A stretch of DNA of 64,000 bases, taken from assembly GCA_016788425.1 (NCBI GenBank), contig JAEURQ010000002.1, positions 124,001 through 188,000 of the forward strand, in the 5' to 3' direction. The position numbers and the translations under genes were made by a program. This DNA is from Chthonomonas sp. (GTDB lineage: Bacteria > Armatimonadota > Fimbriimonadia > Fimbriimonadales > Fimbriimonadaceae). Each line of letters starts with the position of its first letter. The first letter of the stretch is position 1. A model generated the notes under the pieces. That model searched no databases. It was given only the letters and a program-made list of their open reading frames with translations, and was not told where the DNA came from. Below are positions 14,113-42,512 of this stretch, piece after piece.

Positions 14113-17031
14113 ATGAAAAATCGAACAGCTTTACTTGCTATTGCCTTGGGATTGGGCGTGCTGCCAGCGAGCGCACTTGCCCAAATGTGGGTTAACGAAT
14201 GTATTGATCCGATGAATACGGCTCCGTATTCAACCGACTACGGCGTGAGCGGCATCGGAAACCGCTTTATCAGCATTACCCAGGGTCTTAGCGGCACCGT
14301 TACCTACGGAGGCATGACTGGACCTTGCTATGCCCCGACCGCCCGAACCCTCTCCGCCCAGGGCCGATTTGCTTTTTATACGGCTGGAACCGGGAGTAGT
14401 CAAACCGACTTTGACGACATCTTGGCCTACACGGTGGGCGCTCCCCGCGATGCCGCTGGCGATTTTTGCTACGCCCGCATTGTTCGCTTCGATCCGACCG
14501 ACGTGCCAGCTGACGCCGAGAAGAGCTATCTGTTTGGCGAAGATGGCGTTGGCCACTTTGTTGGAGCAAGCAACCGCTACTTTATCTCCCTTACCGAAAA
14601 CGGTGGTTGCCGCGTAGAATTGCGCGCTGACGCTGTTGGTGACGCCATCCGCATGCGCTGGCGCATGACCAACACCGGCACGACCACCCAAACCTTTGGT
14701 CTTAAGTTCGGCGCTTGGCCGGGCATGTTTGCTCAACCCGGCAGCTATGTGGATCCGGTAACCGGCGACACCCAGCCCTGGACGCAAGCTGGCGCAAACT
14801 TGCCGAGCGCAACCGGTATTGTCAAGCAAGGCACCGGCAACCCGCCTTATCCTTCGTACATTGTTACTCCGGAAAACCGACCGATTCGTGAAGGCCGCTC
14901 GTGGGTTCGCACCACGCCGGGCTTCCCGACCACGGTGAGTTTCACTTTCGGACAGGCTCTACCTTATGGCCTGCGAATCGAAAACGAAGCGAATGATTCG
15001 GTTCCGGATCACAGCCCCGTCGCCGGTTTCGCGATGGAAGACGAGTTATATCTCACCCGCGACAACAACATGGAATCGCGCGTGTTCAACGACCCGGCTT
15101 ACGGCTCGGCGACCGGCGACCCTGTTCTTAACGCAGGTGCCCCGGCCCTTCGAGAGCGCTCGGACGTGGCCGTGCAAAATATGGCCTTCGTGCAAACGTT
15201 CCAACCGCAAAACGTTGGCGCAGGCGGCACGGTCGATTTCGTCAACTATATTCGTTCGAGCTGGTCGGTGGCCAGCTACGCCACCAATGTGGGCACCACT
15301 CCGGCCGCCTACTCGGCGGTTCTGGACGGTCCTTTGCTCATTGGAAACGACCCGAACGGCGGCGCGCTTGCTCCGAACCCGTTCAATGTATTCGTCCACG
15401 TCGACAATACGCTGGCTGAGCTCGATCAAGAAATCACCCTGAACAACGTGAAGGTGACGATCAATTTGCCAGAAGGCATGGGCGTAAGCCTTGCTCCCGG
15501 CGAAACGATTACGAAGATCATCCCCTCGATCAACCCGAAGCAGATTCGCACGGTTCAGTGGGACTTGGAGACCGATGGTACATCGCCTTCGGAAGTGCCT
15601 TACACAGTTACGGTGCAGCCGACGCCCGGTCCGGTCAAGACGCTCGCCGGCAAGTTCAAGATCGCGAGCAGCCCGAACGTTCGACTTGGTGAAGGTGCGA
15701 ACATGGTGAGCTTCCCGTGGTCGTTCACCGATACCTCGCTGGATGCGATCTTTGATCCGCTCGTGAACGGTCAAGACTTCTATGCTTACCGCTGGAATCC
15801 GGACACCGGCGAATATGTACCGGTGACTTCGGCCGAACGCGGCCAAGCCATCTGGATCGTGTCCGACTTGGATACCGGAGTTCTGGATTTAACGGGCGCT
15901 CAACCGGCGGCCGACAACGTGACCGGTGGTTTGGTGACGAACCTTCGACCGGGCTGGAACCAAATCGGGAACCCGTACAGCTACCCGATTCCGCTCAGCC
16001 AACTCGTGGGCTTCGCCGAAGACAATCCTTCGCGATCGCTGACGTGGGCCGAAATGGTGCAAAACCAACTCGTGAGCCCGAGCCTTGCTTTCTGGCAACG
16101 CGATCCGGCTGACCCGACTTCGGGCAGCTACGCCTTCACCGGTTCGAACGCCGACACGCTTCTGCCGAATCAAGGCTACTGGATCTATGTCACAAGCTTC
16201 CAACCGGTTCGCTTGAGCTGGCCGCCGGTGTTCACCGCTGGTCTGCCGGGTTCCACCCGAAGCCAACAAGCCGCAAACGCCTGGACGCAATCGGACAAGC
16301 AGTGGCGACTCAACCTCGTCGCTCGCACCGATAGTGGTGTGGACAGCAGCAACTTCATTGGCGTGGCCAAGAACAAGGCTGAGGCAACTCGTCTGCGAGT
16401 CTACGAGCCGCCGCGCTCGCCGAACGCAAGCGTTGAGCTTTCGGTCCTGGATACCGTGGATGGCAAGCCGGCTCGCCTGGCCCAAGTCCTCAGCGAAACC
16501 TCGGGACGCCGTGAGTTCAAGGTGAATGTCCGCGCCAACGATGCGGGTGATGTCACTCTGCTCTGGCCGAACGTCAACTCGATCCCACGCAACGTTCGCG
16601 TTCAACTGGTGGACACCACCACGAACACGACTCGCGACCTGAGATTCGCCTCGAGCTACAGCTTCAAGATGGAAGCCAACTCGACCCGCGAAATGAAGGT
16701 GCAGATCGAACCGGGCCTCGCCACCAAGGCAGTGATCGGCAACGTGATCGTGACTCGCCCGAGCAAGGATGTCCGCGCTCCGTTCACCATCAACTACAGC
16801 CTCTCGTCGAGCGCCAACACGACGATTCGTGTTCTTGGTAGCAATGGCGGCGAAGTCTACACGGTGACCCGTGGTCGAGCAGACCGCGTCGGCGAAAATT
16901 CGGCGACCTGGACAATGCGCGACAACGCAAACCGTGCGGTGGCCCCGGGCGTCTACCAAGTCGAAATCGTGGCGGAAACCTCCACTGGCGAACGAGTTCG
17001 CAAGCTGGTTCCGGTCAACGTCGTTCGATAA
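14113..17031 (+). CDS. large secreted protein with FlgD-Ig-like C-terminal domain
   Basis: 972 residues with a signal peptide (MKNRTALLAIALGLGVLPASALAQ). The first ~500 residues are beta-rich with two early Cys (ECIDPM, GPCYAPT) and no family I can name. Residues ~525-700 contain motifs seen in large exported proteins of Bacteroidetes and armatimonads: GANMVSFPWSF, FYAYRWNPDTGEYVPV, GWNQIGNPYSYPIPL, NQGYWIYV. Residues ~875-972 form an immunoglobulin-like FlgD/T9SS-tail-type domain: FTINYSLSSSANTTIRVLGSNG, WTMRDNANRAVAPGVYQVEIV. In other systems such tails bind sorting machinery or cap structures. Its stop and the next start share one base (TAATG), so the two proteins are probably made together. 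Confidence 0.65.
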   Translation: MKNRTALLAIALGLGVLPASALAQMWVNECIDPMNTAPYSTDYGVSGIGNRFISITQGLSGTVTYGGMTGPCYAPTARTLSAQGRFAFYTAGTGSSQTDFDDILAYTVGAPRDAAGDFCYARIVRFDPTDVPADAEKSYLFGEDGVGHFVGASNRYFISLTENGGCRVELRADAVGDAIRMRWRMTNTGTTTQTFGLKFGAWPGMFAQPGSYVDPVTGDTQPWTQAGANLPSATGIVKQGTGNPPYPSYIVTPENRPIREGRSWVRTTPGFPTTVSFTFGQALPYGLRIENEANDSVPDHSPVAGFAMEDELYLTRDNNMESRVFNDPAYGSATGDPVLNAGAPALRERSDVAVQNMAFVQTFQPQNVGAGGTVDFVNYIRSSWSVASYATNVGTTPAAYSAVLDGPLLIGNDPNGGALAPNPFNVFVHVDNTLAELDQEITLNNVKVTINLPEGMGVSLAPGETITKIIPSINPKQIRTVQWDLETDGTSPSEVPYTVTVQPTPGPVKTLAGKFKIASSPNVRLGEGANMVSFPWSFTDTSLDAIFDPLVNGQDFYAYRWNPDTGEYVPVTSAERGQAIWIVSDLDTGVLDLTGAQPAADNVTGGLVTNLRPGWNQIGNPYSYPIPLSQLVGFAEDNPSRSLTWAEMVQNQLVSPSLAFWQRDPADPTSGSYAFTGSNADTLLPNQGYWIYVTSFQPVRLSWPPVFTAGLPGSTRSQQAANAWTQSDKQWRLNLVARTDSGVDSSNFIGVAKNKAEATRLRVYEPPRSPNASVELSVLDTVDGKPARLAQVLSETSGRREFKVNVRANDAGDVTLLWPNVNSIPRNVRVQLVDTTTNTTRDLRFASSYSFKMEANSTREMKVQIEPGLATKAVIGNVIVTRPSKDVRAPFTINYSLSSSANTTIRVLGSNGGEVYTVTRGRADRVGENSATWTMRDNANRAVAPGVYQVEIVAETSTGERVRKLVPVNVVR

Positions 17032-35691: not shown

Positions 35692-38103
35692 ATGACTGTA
35701 CGTAATCGACTTATCCTCACCGTGGCCCTGTCATTGCTGGGCGCGATTGGATTGCTGATCGCCACGGTCACGGCGCCGATGCAGCGCACCTTTACCGACC
35801 TCGATCACCGCGACGGCGAGCAGCAACTGCAGCGGATCGGCGAGGCATTTCGGCTTGTCAACAAGACCCAGTACGACCGGGCGATTGACTGGGCACAATG
35901 GGACGACGCTTACCGCTTTCTGATCGACAAGAGCCCTGAGTTCGTTACGGTCAACATGACGCCGCAGACGGTGAGCGAAATGAAGCTCGATGCGCTGGCC
36001 TTCTTCCGGCCCGATGGATCGCTGTTTGAAGGCTCGTTTCCTCGGCGGATTACGGATTTGGCGCCGTTGGACTTGAACATGGTTCAGGAATCGTTGCGCT
36101 GGCCGCAATTGCTGGCCGAGCCCGGCTTCAAGAAAGAGGGTGTTCACGGCTATGTCCTGGTCGGGCGCGAACTGGTTTCCGTGATCGTGAGGCCGGTGTT
36201 GCGGTCGGATCAGACCGGACCAAGCAATGGCTACCTGTTGTTCGCGCGCCGGTACGGCCACGACTTTCAAGCGATTGTCCGCGACGTCACGCAGATTGAT
36301 GCAAGCGTGCGCGACCTCGATGACGCCGAGGTGACCGGCTCCATGCGCGCCACGATTGCGGGAACCGGGATGTTCGCGCCGCGGCTGGATGACGTGCAAC
36401 GGCACGGATACCTACAACTGAAAAGCATCTTCGGCGAGCCGATCGCTTTGGTGCGCGCACCCCTGAAGCACAGCATCGCCGAGGCAGGGATGAAGAGTGT
36501 GAGCCGACTGAGTTGGTCCATTTTTGGCGTCGGACTGCTAGCTTGCGTGCTCATTACCGTGCTCGTAGATCGCTTCGTGCTGCGTCGGCTCTTTAGTCTG
36601 CGGGCCCAGATGCAGGCGATTCGCTCCAGCGAAGGTGCGCGCGTGGCCATGTCCGGCACCGACGAGTTTGCCGACCTAGCGGGGACGGTCAACGACATGC
36701 TCGCCACGCTGGACCAAGAATCGCTGAAGCTGCGCCAGTCGCAAGATGAACTGCGCTCGCAAAACACCTCGTTGAACTCAGCTATCGAAACTGTGGAATA
36801 CCAAGCGAACCACGATGCCCTCACGGGTTTGGCCAATCGCGCGCTGTTCAACCGCTGTTTGCTGGCATCGTTGGAGCGCGGCCGCGCCGAGGGTCACGCG
36901 GTGGCGGTCGCGTATCTGGACCTCGACTCGTTTAAGATGGTGAACGACAGCCTGGGGCACATGGCCGGCGATGAACTGCTGGTGATGGTGGGTCGGCGGT
37001 TGCAGCAATGCGTGCGCTCGGAGGACGTGATCGCGCGGCTGGGCGGCGACGAGTTTGTGGTGCTCGTGCGAGATTTGGTGAGCAAAGATGACGCCGCGAG
37101 CATTATCGCGCGCATCATGGAGGACCTTTCGTTCCCTTATGTGCTGGCCGGGCAAGAGCTTTTCGCGATGGCGAGTATCGGCGTGGCGTACGCGCCGCGG
37201 TGCCGGGATAGCGCCGAGGAGATGATGAAGAAGGCCGACACCGCGCTGTACGCGGCGAAGGCTCGCGGCAAGGGCTGTTTCGAGTTCTTTAGCGACGACA
37301 TGGATCACGCCTCGACCGAGCGCCTGGAGCTCAGCAACATGCTGCGCAAGGCCGTGGTGAACCACGAAATTGACGTCCACTTTCAGCCGATTGTGGACTT
37401 GCAAACCGGCCTCGTGCATGGCGCGGAAGCCTTGGCGCGGTGGACTCACGCGCGGCGCGGACCGATTTCGCCGGCGGAGTTCATTCCCATTGCCGAGCAG
37501 TGCGGCCTCATCGGCGAACTCGGATATCGGGTGATGGAAAAGGCATGCGAGGCGGCGTTCGCCTGGACGCAACTTCCGGGCTACGAGGGTTTCCGGATGA
37601 GCGTCAACCTCTCGGGGCGGCAACTCGCGCAAAGCGACGTGGTGAGCAAGGTCCGAGCTATTTTGGAGCGCACCGGTCTGCCGGCCCCCAACCTGCAAAT
37701 TGAGCTGACCGAATCGGTGCTGATTGACGAGGACTCGGCGAAATCGAAGATTTCCGCCTTGCGCGAGCTTGGCGTGGCGTTTGCGCTGGACGACTTTGGC
37801 ACCGGCTATTCCTCGCTTTCGACGCTGCATCAGCATCCGATTGACTGCCTGAAAATCGACCGCTCGTTTGTCATGACGATTGACGAGGACGAGCACGCCC
37901 GCGCGGTGGTGGAGGCGATTCTTTCGATGACGAAGGTGATGCGGATCGACGTGGTGGCCGAGGGGATTGAGACGGTCACGCAAGGCGAGTTTTTGCGCGG
38001 CCAGCAGTGCCAGTTCGGGCAGGGATACTTCTACAGCCGCCCCATCCCGGGCGCGGAATTCGAACGGTTGCTGGCGGGTTGGTCGTCGGCCGAGGCTGCG
38101 TGA
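35692..38103 (+). CDS. membrane GGDEF-EAL protein with CHASE4-like sensor and HAMP
   Basis: 803 residues. Transmembrane helix 1 at ~7-29, a periplasmic CHASE4-like domain (~35-270; VNKTQYDRAIDWAQWDDAYRF is the signature area), helix 2 at ~275-297, HAMP ~298-350, then GGDEF with intact RLGGDEF near 450 and EAL with EALARW near 577, ELTES, DDFGTGYSSL, KIDRSFV, AEGIET and GQGYFYSRP. Both output motifs look complete, so it could make or break cyclic di-GMP; which activity dominates cannot be told. The I-site RxxD five residues before GGDEF is not evident (VIARLGGDEF). It starts at ATG 35692 after GGGGAGAAGG. Monocistronic, followed by tRNA-Val. Confidence 0.93.
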   Translation: MTVRNRLILTVALSLLGAIGLLIATVTAPMQRTFTDLDHRDGEQQLQRIGEAFRLVNKTQYDRAIDWAQWDDAYRFLIDKSPEFVTVNMTPQTVSEMKLDALAFFRPDGSLFEGSFPRRITDLAPLDLNMVQESLRWPQLLAEPGFKKEGVHGYVLVGRELVSVIVRPVLRSDQTGPSNGYLLFARRYGHDFQAIVRDVTQIDASVRDLDDAEVTGSMRATIAGTGMFAPRLDDVQRHGYLQLKSIFGEPIALVRAPLKHSIAEAGMKSVSRLSWSIFGVGLLACVLITVLVDRFVLRRLFSLRAQMQAIRSSEGARVAMSGTDEFADLAGTVNDMLATLDQESLKLRQSQDELRSQNTSLNSAIETVEYQANHDALTGLANRALFNRCLLASLERGRAEGHAVAVAYLDLDSFKMVNDSLGHMAGDELLVMVGRRLQQCVRSEDVIARLGGDEFVVLVRDLVSKDDAASIIARIMEDLSFPYVLAGQELFAMASIGVAYAPRCRDSAEEMMKKADTALYAAKARGKGCFEFFSDDMDHASTERLELSNMLRKAVVNHEIDVHFQPIVDLQTGLVHGAEALARWTHARRGPISPAEFIPIAEQCGLIGELGYRVMEKACEAAFAWTQLPGYEGFRMSVNLSGRQLAQSDVVSKVRAILERTGLPAPNLQIELTESVLIDEDSAKSKISALRELGVAFALDDFGTGYSSLSTLHQHPIDCLKIDRSFVMTIDEDEHARAVVEAILSMTKVMRIDVVAEGIETVTQGEFLRGQQCQFGQGYFYSRPIPGAEFERLLAGWSSAEAA

Positions 38104-38123: not shown

Positions 38124-38198
38124 GGTCGGTTAGCTCAGTGGTAGAGCACTTCGTTCACACCGAAGGGGTCGTAGGTTCAAATCCTATACCGACCACCA
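38124..38198 (+). tRNA. tRNA-Val (CAC)
   Basis: Complete cloverleaf: acceptor GGTCGGT (38124-38130) with 38188-38194, D-arm TAGCTCAGTGGTAGAGCA, anticodon stem CTTCG (38149-38153) with CGAAG (38161-38165) and loop TTCACAC with anticodon CAC (38156-38158), T-arm GTAGG-TTCAAAT-CCTAT, discriminator A and encoded CCA (38196-38198). The 3' half is overlapped by the antisense end of the KAP NTPase gene, the usual sign of insertion at a tRNA 3' end. Confidence 0.95.
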
Positions 38199-40338
38199 TT
38201 TCCGCTGAGCAAGCTTCCTGTTTTTCAAACTTGAAATCATCGGCCACCATCTTGATTCCCGCCGCATTTTGGAAATAATGTTCTCTGGCAGCGATGCCGT
38301 CTTGTGTCAGTAACGTGCGGTCAAGTGCTTGCAGCGATATCCAGTATTGCGATCCGGGTTCGGCAGCAACCGTTCCGACATTATTGCGCCAGCGGCTTGC
38401 AAGAACTGTATTTACATAGCTTGCCAACCACTCCGGTAACTTGGCTCTACTTTCGAACCAATTGGAGTATTCATTTGGCCCCAGCAATCCCCTCAGGCTA
38501 TCAAAATAAACTTCTACATGATTAGATTGGAAAAAGTCTTCTGAATCACAGGCCTTTAAGAGGAGAGGAAGAATGAAATTTCGGACAGACTCCATTTGTT
38601 CTCGGGTACACCACTCTCCACCACGGTGAGCAACAGTTATATTATTGTTCTCCATCGCGCAGACATAGCTTAAACAACACAGTGCTTTTGTACAAAGCCA
38701 CACTTCTCCGATAACGTCTTCAGCAGGCTCCTCTTTGAGAAGTCGGCTCAGACACGCAGCAGAAATGCGACGAACAACTGTAAGAGGTCTGGGGTCTTCC
38801 CACGAGCTAATCCTCAGATTGCTTTGGGATTCTCCCCATGTTAGCACGCCTGTAAGAAGTGCCATCGCCTCGACAACCGATAACTCATGTGCTCTATCGG
38901 CAACAATGTTTGAAAATCTTGTCCTACTTACTTCCTCGTCTAGAAACACCAACCATTTGTCGCCGTTCTCGCCATCAGCGAGTTGCCTTCTTAACTCGAG
39001 CCACTCTTCTTCGCGCATTGAGGCTCGTCCGGAGTCATACCCAAAATAGACGTGGGTCCAATGGATTGAGGCGAAACGCCGATCTCGATGCTGTGGTAAT
39101 CCCCAAGTTCTTCCAACACCGTCTGTATCTGTAATATTATCCTGGAGGAGTCTTAGGACCTCCATAGAAAGTGTCTTTAACGGTTCTGCAGGCGGTGTGG
39201 CCGCGTCGCGGGCGGCCTTGCGCACCCTGCTTAGCTCCTCAGGAAAACCGTACTCTTGAACGATGCCACCCGGAACTGGAGAATATTCGTCTCGCAACAC
39301 CTCATAAAGCGTGGGCACGGTTTGCCTAAGAAACTCCAGGGCAAGGAAGTCTGCTGGGTCAACGTTACGAATGTTACCGCTAGTTACACCCGGAAGCAAA
39401 GACTGCACGGTCCCAACATAGCGCTTCATCTGACGGACGGTCTTAAGGCCCGGCAAAAGGATGCATAGGAATACATCATGGAGACGCTCCTTAGCGTTGC
39501 CTTCAACACTGTGTAGATCAAGACCTTCTAGAAACCTCGTCAGAGTTAGCTGACGTTGCAATATTGTAGTATGAGGAAGGTGGAATGCTTGTCCAATGAT
39601 TTTTTCAACGAAGGCATTACTGTCATGGACCGAATCGCTTAGTGAGAATACTACTTGATCATGATCGTACAGTAGCAGATATCGAACATTGGGAAAGTCG
39701 GCGCAAGCTTTTATTAGCTGGAAGACAGTGCGAACCTCCGCGCAGTCTAGGCGGTCGATATCGTCTATCATTACGACCACTGGTTTTTCCAGATCAACTA
39801 GGGTTTTCGAAAGCGAGTCCCTCGCTTCTCTAAGAGTTGGCTGTTGAGCCTGCTCTGCCAACCCCTTCACGGCGATCTCCATGGCTTTTCTGGAGCTTCG
39901 CAGAGCCTTTCCGGCCGCACCGGCAAGCGGCACCCCTAGAGATCCGGTGGCGTCGGCGGTGAGGGCAAGGGCATCCAATGCTAATGCTGTATATCTGTAG
40001 AACTTAGCCCGTTTCTCCCTAGATTCCTTTGAGTTATCCTTCGGCAGTACCGCCTTTCCGAGCTCCTTAAAGAATTCGCGCGCCAAAGCCTCCGGCGTAC
40101 TCACCATCCACGGCTCAAATCGAACCACGTTGATCGACGGATCAGTGGCTAGAACGCGAGCAATAACGAAGTTCGCCACCGTGCTCTTTCCTGTTCCCCA
40201 TCCGCCGGTTAGCCCAACGACTGTCGCTCGCTTTTTGTTCTCTGCCAGCAGAGCATGTGCTACGAGAGCCGCAAATGGTCCGCGACCCAGCTCATCATGC
40301 TCCTCATCTTCCAACGGATTATCATTCCAATCGATCAT
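38155..40338 (-). CDS. KAP-family P-loop NTPase
   Basis: 727 residues. Walker A GGWGTGKST at 45-53, the KAP-typical FEPWMVSTPEALAREFFKELG shortly after, hydrophobic segment ~115-145 that may be the family's membrane hairpin, and Walker B KPVVVMIDDIDRLD with DD at 192-193 followed by the sensor FQLIKACADFPNVRYLLLYDHDQV. KAP NTPases are membrane-associated STAND-like ATPases; several take part in phage defence (for example QatA), others in signalling. The last ~15 codons (MVVGIGFEPTTPSV) are antisense tRNA-Val sequence, so the native C-terminus was probably replaced on insertion. The gene is clearly lower in G+C than its surroundings (21 G/C of 60 at 38521-38580; 25 of 60 at 39541-39600). No integrase or partner gene of a known system is adjacent. 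Confidence 0.85.
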   Translation of the reverse strand: MIDWNDNPLEDEEHDELGRGPFAALVAHALLAENKKRATVVGLTGGWGTGKSTVANFVIARVLATDPSINVVRFEPWMVSTPEALAREFFKELGKAVLPKDNSKESREKRAKFYRYTALALDALALTADATGSLGVPLAGAAGKALRSSRKAMEIAVKGLAEQAQQPTLREARDSLSKTLVDLEKPVVVMIDDIDRLDCAEVRTVFQLIKACADFPNVRYLLLYDHDQVVFSLSDSVHDSNAFVEKIIGQAFHLPHTTILQRQLTLTRFLEGLDLHSVEGNAKERLHDVFLCILLPGLKTVRQMKRYVGTVQSLLPGVTSGNIRNVDPADFLALEFLRQTVPTLYEVLRDEYSPVPGGIVQEYGFPEELSRVRKAARDAATPPAEPLKTLSMEVLRLLQDNITDTDGVGRTWGLPQHRDRRFASIHWTHVYFGYDSGRASMREEEWLELRRQLADGENGDKWLVFLDEEVSRTRFSNIVADRAHELSVVEAMALLTGVLTWGESQSNLRISSWEDPRPLTVVRRISAACLSRLLKEEPAEDVIGEVWLCTKALCCLSYVCAMENNNITVAHRGGEWCTREQMESVRNFILPLLLKACDSEDFFQSNHVEVYFDSLRGLLGPNEYSNWFESRAKLPEWLASYVNTVLASRWRNNVGTVAAEPGSQYWISLQALDRTLLTQDGIAAREHYFQNAAGIKMVADDFKFEKQEACSAEMVVGIGFEPTTPSV

Positions 40339-40547
40339 CGTCTACTATTTGCAACCTCGTTAAATCGCAGTGTACGTGACTTGCATGTGGAATATTGGTG
40401 GGTTCGTACCCTGCAGCACAGCAATTTTGAGTTACATGAGTCGAGTCCTTCTGGCCCAGGACCAGCGCCCCGCACAATTACCGGAAACCGCACCCCAAGA
40501 GCCGCATTCCGGCGACCTGCAGTATAACCACCAGGAAGGTGAGCGAT
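40339..40547. other. intergenic region, island boundary
   Basis: 209 nt between the divergent KAP and PEP-CTERM genes. It holds a TATAAC box (40523-40528) for the rightward gene and a ribosome site AGGAAGG. A weak T-arm-like stretch, GTGGGTTCGTACCCTGC, lies inside it but lacks the conserved A58, so an attachment-site repeat is not established. Confidence 0.4.
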
Positions 40548-41159
40548 ATGCAGATTTCTCGAAGTGTTTTCGTGAGTGCAGTGATCGGTTGGGCGGCGAC
40601 GAGTTCGGCCCTGACCACGACTTTTAGTACCGGCTTTGAGGGCTGGACGCAGACGAGCGGGGTGACGCACCAGGTGGCGGGCGGCAACCTGGGCGGGCAT
40701 CTGCAGTTCGCCGATTCGGGTCCGGCGAACGGCGGGCAGATCGTCGCGCCGAACACCTACTTGGGCAATTGGCTGACCTCGTACGGCGCCAACGGCACAT
40801 TCTCCCTGGACTATCGCGTCGTGCGAGCCGGCGTGTTTATGCCGTTCCCCATGGGCGTCACCATCACCGGCACGTCCGGTTCGATGTCGCACAGCTTCCC
40901 GGGCAACTTCACGGCGGCGTTTGGCTGGACCAACTGGTCCAGCGCCCTGAACGCCAACACCTGGTCGGTCAGCGGAAATCTGAACTCGATTTTGGGCAAC
41001 GTAACCGAAGTGCGGGTGTTCATGCCGTGCTCCTCCGACGCGCTGGAAATCACCGGCGTTGACAACATCTCGGTGGCCGCGGTCCCCGAGCCGGCATCGG
41101 CGCTAGCCTTTGCTGGGTTTGCGCTGGTGCTGCTCAAGGGTGGACGTCGTCGGCGATAA
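40548..41159 (+). CDS. PEP-CTERM sorting-domain protein
   Basis: 203 residues from ATG 40548; a GTG three codons upstream is possible but AGGAAGG fits the ATG. Signal peptide MQISRSVFVSAVIGWAATSSA. The body is a single beta-sandwich-like domain: STGFEGWTQTSGVTHQVAGGNLGG, FSLDYRVVRAG, EVRVFMPCSSDALEITGVDNISVAAV, a pattern common to laminin-G/CBM-like PEP-CTERM proteins that begin with FEGW. The C-terminal anchor is VPEPASALAFAGFALVLLKGGRRRR. High G+C, unlike the flanking KAP and PIN genes, so it is probably native. Function unknown. Confidence 0.8.
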   Translation: MQISRSVFVSAVIGWAATSSALTTTFSTGFEGWTQTSGVTHQVAGGNLGGHLQFADSGPANGGQIVAPNTYLGNWLTSYGANGTFSLDYRVVRAGVFMPFPMGVTITGTSGSMSHSFPGNFTAAFGWTNWSSALNANTWSVSGNLNSILGNVTEVRVFMPCSSDALEITGVDNISVAAVPEPASALAFAGFALVLLKGGRRRR

Positions 41160-41612: not shown

Positions 41613-42512
41613 ATGTGCGGCATGGGGTGGAGGGCTTGGCTCAGCAACAAGGCTGACCGTATTGAATTTAAGAATGTGCTCATCGCATTCGACACCAGCA
41701 CGCTGCTGAAGTTGTACAAGTTGCCGGTCGGCACAACAGAGACTTACTTAAAGATTCTGGAGAAGCTGCGCAGCCCAGAACTGGCAAACCAAAGCGTGTC
41801 GGTCAAGATTCCGCCGCAAGTGGTGTTTGAGTTCGTAACTCTGTTTGCGAAGGCCAAAAGCGATGCTCTGGAGGTGTACGATGGCGTGTTATCGAAGCTG
41901 AGCTCGGTGCACTCGATTCTGGAAGATGCGCCGGACTATGTGAGCGGCCAGATGAAGCCGGAATGGCGCGATGCCTCGACCAAGTTCGCGGCTCCTTTCA
42001 TTGCTACGCTTGAGAAACAAAGGAAGGAAATCAAGGACCGCAATACAAAGGATCCCGTTTTCAAGTTTCTAGAGTCGTTGTTTGACGAAACCAAGCGGTG
42101 CGAGCCAACGGACGAAGAGTTGCAATGGATCACTTTGAACGGAGCAGAGCGGTATCGAATGGTTGTTCCGCCGGGGTTCGAAGACCAATCGAAGTCCTCA
42201 AGCGGCGAGGATGACCCGGCAAGCTACTACATTTACAGCGCCGAGCGGAAGATGTTCCGCATGTTTGGCGACCTCCTGGTGTGGAGGCAATTGCTCGATT
42301 GCGCCACCTCCCTCAAGCAAAAGCAAAAAGCTCTTAGCCGAATCATTCTGGTGACTGACGATGAAAAGCCAGACTGGTTTAAGGGTCGCGCAGAAAAAGG
42401 TCGTCAGCACCCTCTGCTTACGGTAGAGGCGATGAAGGCAGGTTTTCACCTGAATATTATCAACTCGGATCAGTTCTTGCGCTACGCATCCAAGGCGCTA
42501 AGCATCGCGTAG
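41613..42512 (+). CDS. PIN-like (PIN_8/DUF4935) domain protein, putative nuclease
   Basis: 299 residues. The N-terminal strand VLIAFDTSTLLKLYKL with Asp27, PPQVVFEFVTLF (acidic Glu), ERYRMVVPPGFEDQSKSS, FGDLLVWRQLLDCA and the C-terminal IILVTDDEKPDWF follow the PIN_8 (PIN-like, formerly DUF4935) pattern, in which acidic residues bind metal and cut RNA or DNA. PIN_8 proteins often occur in defence-related gene neighbourhoods. Start is uncertain: ATG at 41613 or 41622, neither with a ribosome site. Base composition is lower in G+C than the flanks (26 of 60 at 42001-42060), suggesting transfer. No antitoxin-like partner with a DNA-binding domain is adjacent. Confidence 0.75.
   Translation: MCGMGWRAWLSNKADRIEFKNVLIAFDTSTLLKLYKLPVGTTETYLKILEKLRSPELANQSVSVKIPPQVVFEFVTLFAKAKSDALEVYDGVLSKLSSVHSILEDAPDYVSGQMKPEWRDASTKFAAPFIATLEKQRKEIKDRNTKDPVFKFLESLFDETKRCEPTDEELQWITLNGAERYRMVVPPGFEDQSKSSSGEDDPASYYIYSAERKMFRMFGDLLVWRQLLDCATSLKQKQKALSRIILVTDDEKPDWFKGRAEKGRQHPLLTVEAMKAGFHLNIINSDQFLRYASKALSIA

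Follow-up and report, generated by a model that had tools for sequence, protein, structure and literature searches.

PifA, encoded by the F plasmid, is an abortive-infection protein that excludes phage T7 (PMC8594841), and Tmn is a KAP NTPase with two transmembrane domains (PMC11846954). For genomic islands mapped to tRNA genes, Islander serves as a reference (PMC4383910). Here, we analyzed a window of 64,000 nucleotides from the genome of Chthonomonas sp. (contig JAEURQ010000002.1, positions 124,001 to 188,000), which carries a PifA-type KAP NTPase gene whose last codons and stop are the antisense strand of a tRNA-Val gene, and compared this locus with those of its relatives. The coordinates of the features are given in Table 1.

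Table 1. Features of the KAP locus in the window, and the tRNA-Val(CAC) pieces of relative G024
Feature	Position	Strand	Basis and remarks
Left neighbour, CHASE4-HAMP-GGDEF-EAL protein	35692..38103	+	host composition
tRNA-Val, anticodon CAC	38124..38198	+	ARAGORN; intact, CCA encoded
Putative attachment core, tRNA positions 27-75	38150..38198	+	analogy with relatives' 3'-half copies starting at 27 (G001) or 25 (G024); second copy not seen in this genome
KAP tail, last 14 codons (residues 714-727, MVVGIGFEPTTPSV) and TGA	38155..38199	-	antisense of tRNA positions 32-75 plus 1 nt outside; predicted disordered
PifA-type KAP P-loop NTPase, 727 aa	38155..40338	-	Pfam, PADLOC, composition (GC3 0.49), AlphaFold model
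Low-GC block, presumed island	38199..40450		right boundary approximate; host GC resumes between about 40400 and 40600
Walker B region, invariant DDIDR (about residues 187-196)	39751..39780	-	alignments
Walker A region, GGWGTGKST (about residues 45-53)	40180..40206	-	alignments
Right neighbour, secreted protein, Laminin_B match, PEP-CTERM-like end	40539..41159	+	host composition
G024, intact divergent tRNA copy	L043:7499-7573	+	
G024, tRNA 5' half (1-40)	L043:9764-9803	-	
G024, tRNA 3' half (25-75)	L042:9922-9972	-	

The KAP gene ends within an intact tRNA-Val(CAC) gene

ARAGORN identified a single tRNA gene in the window, the tRNA-Val(CAC), and this is the only one with a CAC anticodon among the tRNA-Val genes of this genome that were checked, the others being GAC and UAC. 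The KAP open reading frame enters this tRNA from its 3' end. Apart from a single base in the first of their codons, residues 714-727 are antisense tRNA. The TGA stop (38155-38157) complements tRNA positions 32-34, where U33 and the first two anticodon bases lie. The KAP ORF runs up to the tRNA with no in-frame stop, and the antisense overlap is therefore real whichever start codon or annotation is chosen. An earlier note on this DNA had described the gene as inserted antisense into the 3' half of the tRNA, with a C-terminus made of tRNA sequence. The tRNA-derived C-terminus and the antisense overlap were both confirmed; the tRNA itself is not disrupted, and the gene abuts its 3' end.

To our knowledge, U33 is universal in tRNAs. 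Since the KAP stop is the complement of U33 and the start of the anticodon, the frame would be expected to close at the same place in other tRNA-Val genes, and when the copies of the relatives were translated in the KAP frame, nearly all had a stop there. Once a 3' end has been joined to the tRNA in frame, a run-on of 14 codons is about what chance predicts, the odds of meeting no stop in 14 codons being roughly even by our own arithmetic. It is the junction that is informative, together with the composition and the hotspot, and the length of the run-on is unremarkable. For the most part, the locus is what genomic islands ordinarily leave behind, apart from a single unusual detail; in the literature searched, which was covered in part, we found no report of genes terminating within a tRNA in such a manner.

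The composition break is confined to the KAP gene

The KAP gene has a G+C content of 50.4% and a GC3 of 0.488, compared to 0.60-0.87 for all other window genes measured and normal values of 0.78 and 0.80 for the two flanking genes. As proposed in the earlier note, the gene is thus far below both flanks in G+C, and the break in composition is confined to it. The KAP gene is a foreign, single and recently acquired gene. Further to the right, a gene at 41613-42512 (+) encodes a PIN_8-domain protein (9.5e-31) and is followed by a small ORF with a lower GC3 (0.61); this region, slightly low in GC, is possibly another acquired gene. An island reaching as far as the PIN_8 gene was also considered; the GC3 of that gene (0.67) falls in the ordinary range of the window genes.

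Neither an integrase nor an excisionase was found near the KAP gene, all PF00589 matches of this genome lying elsewhere. Neither the tRNA nor the segment 38155-38198 recurs in the window, in agreement with the earlier remark that no integrase or second attachment repeat is visible. A repeat of 38155-38198 beyond the island, for which a search had been suggested, did not materialize in the window either; among the other genome matches to the tRNA segment that were listed, all are tRNA-Val(GAC) and tRNA-Val(UAC) genes. A T-arm-like string at 40398-40420 was rejected as a relic of the tRNA at the far end, as its local alignment scores were no better than those of shuffles, and the right-hand intergenic region (40320-40560) had no match in any of 60 relatives. 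With regard to the features of tRNA islands, the locus therefore has a junction at the 3' end of an intact tRNA, and the same tRNA is used by integrases of relatives (see below), while an integrase within the island and a displaced tRNA fragment at the far end are missing.

The KAP protein is PifA-like and its predicted fold ends where the tRNA begins

The window protein matched the Pfam KAP_NTPase domain (PF07693, 3.7e-37, residues 19-314) and contains both Walker motifs, which upholds its earlier assignment as a KAP NTPase. The GxGK residues of Walker A and the DDxDR of Walker B were invariant across 49 aligned KAP sequences. In PADLOC, the PifA model (PDLC02361) matched nearly the full length of the protein (2.2e-62, residues 5-646 of 727), whereas the QatA model gave a weak match that covers part of it (2e-8). 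PifA was also the top-scoring model for the Fimbriimonadales KAP relatives and for two tRNA-adjacent members of other phyla. In addition, the gene stands alone with no partner of foreign composition, its neighbours being the GGDEF-EAL and secreted proteins of host composition. The link to QatA drawn in the earlier note is thus replaced by a PifA-like assignment. The closest KAP protein comes from the same order (54% identity). Judged by sequence similarity, the window gene most likely acts against phages.

The AlphaFold model of the protein is confident (mean pLDDT 87.5). Its final helix spans residues 679-712 and residues 713-727 have a pLDDT below 50, so the predicted KAP fold ends where the tRNA begins. 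In many KAP NTPases, transmembrane segments interrupt the stretch from Walker A to Walker B. In the window protein, a helical hairpin (residues 104-160) lies there with a best hydropathy of 1.26, under the usual transmembrane threshold, and nowhere in the protein did the mean over 19 residues, about 1.5 at its highest, attain the hydropathy usual for such segments. Searching the PDB by sequence returned nothing useful, and the fold search returned ORC/Cdc6, RdrA and Apaf-1-like ATPases with low TM scores; these matches to the model are consistent with an ATPase of the STAND/AAA+ type, though not diagnostic. The alignment to KAP relatives is continuous up to about residue 690-700. Beyond it, the C-terminal tails of the relatives vary in length and sequence, so the original tail of the window protein cannot be reconstructed and no proper lost end is defined.

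tRNA-Val(CAC) is an integration hotspot in relatives

A 324-aa tyrosine integrase was found in 3 of 61 genomes (G002, G003 and G021), from three genera and 91-95% identical, and in all three it starts exactly 92 nt behind tRNA-Val(CAC). Compared to the G021 copy, the G003 integrase is 94% identical and the G002 integrase, which is split into two frames, 91-95% identical. This integrase is absent from the window genome at E<=1e-60. In G021, two complete tRNA-Val(CAC) copies flank an 11.7-kb element, which encodes the integrase, ThyX, a cytosine methylase, HD-CE, an ORC-CDC6-like ATPase, a CARF protein and a DUF3854 protein. Within this element (L041:7393-12646), the genes for an HTH protein, the cytosine methylase, HD-CE, the ORC-CDC6-like ATPase and the CARF6-type protein are all co-directional, and this set looks like a multi-gene conflict system. 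G021 has three tRNA-Val(CAC) copies (L041:3504-3578, 15232-15306 and 16862-16936), of which the first is a hybrid with a G-A mismatch between its acceptor 5' strand (GGGCGGT) and 3' strand (ACCGACC), as expected if an element supplied the 3' half.

In G024, the native tRNA-Val(CAC) is split, with positions 1-40 and 25-75 on different contigs, and the 5' half adjoins an integrase, different from the 324-aa one, and a NucC-like nuclease. Past the integrase and the NucC-like DUF6602 protein, at 2.2 kb from this 5' half, there is an intact but divergent tRNA-Val(CAC) (84%); by analogy to tRNA-dependent lysogeny (PMC10865867), it is possibly an element-borne replacement. Furthermore, the congener G001 has tRNA copies of positions 27-75 and 55-75 that are 3.2 kb apart. 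In these two genomes (G001 and G024), the tRNA fragments that begin at positions 25-27 are the marks of old integrations. To judge from such 3'-half copies, the crossover falls within the anticodon stem-loop and no further right than the KAP stop codon, and an element using the site in the window genome would carry the KAP tail along. Integrases lie beside tRNA-Val(CAC) in four other genera. Taken together, the integrases and tRNA fragments show that tRNA-Val(CAC) is a genuine integration hotspot in the family (Armatimonadota, Fimbriimonadales), in keeping with the remark of the earlier note that tRNA 3' ends are classic integration sites.

KAP genes occur near tRNAs and at other sites

In G033 (Armatimonadetes bacterium Uphvl-Ar2), a PifA-type KAP gene lies 407 nt behind tRNA-Val(CAC), on the same strand as the tRNA, and its product is 34% identical to the window KAP. 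The window KAP is closer to the KAP of G038 (54%) than to that of G033. Given this low identity and the opposite orientation, the window and G033 genes look like independent arrivals. In G004, from the same genus as G033, the tRNA and its immediate left flank are 99% identical to those of G033, and a different gene with a GC3 of 0.46 occupies the KAP slot. Its 446-aa product (L045:5120-6460, minus strand) had no match in Pfam or PADLOC; by eye, an R-x-x-x-H-like motif near its end is reminiscent of HEPN ribonucleases. The odds that one of the seven KAP genes first found in relatives would lie so near tRNA-Val(CAC) are about 1% by our own arithmetic (a target of ~3 kb in 2.6 Mb, times seven).

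Most Fimbriimonadales KAP genes have no adjacent tRNA. A 4.5-kb block that contains a KAP gene distinguishes the near-identical strains G094 and G018; no tRNA lies at this site, which means that KAP genes have entry points other than the tRNA. In this block (G094 L172:8616-12276), missing from the 98% identical G018, the PifA-type KAP gene stands beside a gene for a 485-aa protein starting MPEYKVFYSWQSDLPNATNRGFI, which by eye is of a TIR-like or nucleotide-sensing type. In a set of 75 KAP loci drawn from many phyla, tRNAs were 3.8 times as dense within 700 nt of the KAP gene (seven tRNAs) as elsewhere in the loci; this test is modest (binomial P about 0.007) and has no phylogenetic correction. 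The KAP gene was on the 3' side of the tRNA in 6 of the 7 tRNA-adjacent cases. At L111, L112, L134 and L137, which belong to unrelated bacteria (Vibrio, Microbacterium, Leifsonia and Oscillospiraceae), a distance of about 80-410 nt separates a PifA-type KAP gene from a tRNA gene. Among the other KAP genes with an adjacent tRNA that were examined, none terminates within that tRNA, and no credible gene ends in the tRNA at the other tRNA-Val(CAC) loci examined; long antisense ORFs entering tRNA-Val(CAC) in G034 and G010 were rejected as shadow frames by their composition.

The earlier note had proposed comparing this locus in close relatives for empty sites and other cargo. Other cargo was indeed found (the G033 KAP gene, the G004 low-GC3 gene and the integrases), and an empty site was not: the congener G001 showed no shared synteny, and its assembly yielded no intact tRNA-Val(CAC). 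The synteny of the flanks is not conserved in the relatives examined, even in this one congener, and hence no empty site was available for comparison with the window genome. The note had also held that relatives carrying the same KAP gene with its own conserved C-terminus, at a position unrelated to tRNA-Val, would speak against its reading. KAP relatives with tails of their own do lie away from this tRNA, but these tails are variable rather than conserved, and the G033 KAP gene is at the same tRNA.

Discussion

We propose, with a probability of about 0.68, that the PifA-like KAP gene arrived with, or was left by, an element targeting tRNA-Val(CAC), that the integrase and far end of this element are gone or were never captured, and that its attachment core supplies the last codons. 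The KAP gene would have been acquired as a short module at a repeatedly used landing site of tyrosine integrases. The element would cross over in the anticodon stem-loop and leave the tRNA whole, since it would bring along a tRNA 3' half of its own. At the edge of the element, the KAP gene would be oriented toward the attachment core, which would in this way give the last codons and the stop. The integrase and the distal attachment fragment may have been lost later, or the KAP gene may have been captured without them; in this genome, we infer both the site-specific integration and the loss of the remainder. The 14-residue tail is probably neutral.

Alternatively, the gene could have entered beside the tRNA by illegitimate or homologous recombination with no site-specific integrase, in which case the hotspot would be coincidental and the run-on a truncated 3' end. 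The failure to find an integrase or an attachment repeat agrees with such an entry, as do the turnover of KAP blocks at non-tRNA sites and the distance of the G033 KAP gene from its tRNA, the intervening sequence being common to G033 and its congener. However, the junction falls at the tRNA 3' end and integrases adjoin the same tRNA in four other genera, and we consider entry by recombination rather unlikely, if worth keeping in mind. An artefact, either a frameshift near the 3' end that removed the true stop or a contig that is chimeric at the tRNA, is barely credible: although the variable tails of the relatives make the true KAP end uncheckable by alignment, the genome is in 4 contigs and 99.9% complete, the window lies within a 1.1 Mb contig, the nearest KAP protein is from the same order and the KAP alignment is unbroken to about residue 690-700.

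The tRNA-encoded C-terminus might also have been selected: the attachment core would serve as a portable C-terminus and stop, and the frame would be intact in every tRNA-Val(CAC) target and also in the circle after excision. Elements at this tRNA indeed carry along a segment (positions 25/27-75) that includes the tail codons and the stop, and a stop fixed by U33 and the anticodon gives the same frame end in nearly all tRNA-Val copies of the relatives. Nevertheless, the tail is predicted to be disordered, the two long ORFs at other tRNA-Val(CAC) loci are likely shadow frames, no other tRNA-adjacent KAP gene shares this ending, and a single case cannot demonstrate selection; we give very little credence to a selected tail. 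It is likewise very unlikely that this is a mobile defence gene in the form of a one-gene cassette, whose frame the tRNA target itself closes by way of the complement of U33 and the anticodon and which would hence be complete at whichever tRNA-Val(CAC) it occupies, as well as in the excised circle. Under the favoured reading, in which an element targeting tRNA-Val(CAC) delivered the gene, a tRNA can supply the last codons and the stop of a gene that abuts an attachment core, and genuine proteins with GFEPTT-like tails could be mistaken for annotation errors. Moreover, tRNA-Val(CAC) is documented here as a hotspot with defence-type cargo in the Fimbriimonadales, a poorly studied lineage in which PifA-like KAP genes turn over as short modules.

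Compared to PifA of the F plasmid, the window KAP is alike in its best profile match (residues 5-646), in being a single gene of about 700 aa and in its intact Walker A and B; it differs in its distant sequence, its chromosomal location in Armatimonadota and its C-terminus from a tRNA, and the likeness, from which an anti-phage function may be surmised, is one of sequence. With QatA, it shares the KAP-type NTPase domain, whereas its flanks are unlike a Qat operon and the PifA model fits far better. Like Tmn, it belongs to the KAP family and would, by homology, act as a single-gene defence; unlike Tmn, it has no segment at transmembrane hydropathy, and the hairpin at 104-160 occupies the interval between Walker A and B. 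The islands mapped by Islander likewise consist of foreign DNA running from the 3' end of an intact tRNA at a tyrosine-integrase site (PMC4383910); since the window island has no integrase or displaced tRNA fragment, its ends cannot be mapped in that way. As in the defence islands at integration hotspots of E. coli (PMC10121019), differing defence-type genes fill one slot across strains, and here the slot is tRNA-Val(CAC) in Fimbriimonadales, filled by single genes or short sets.
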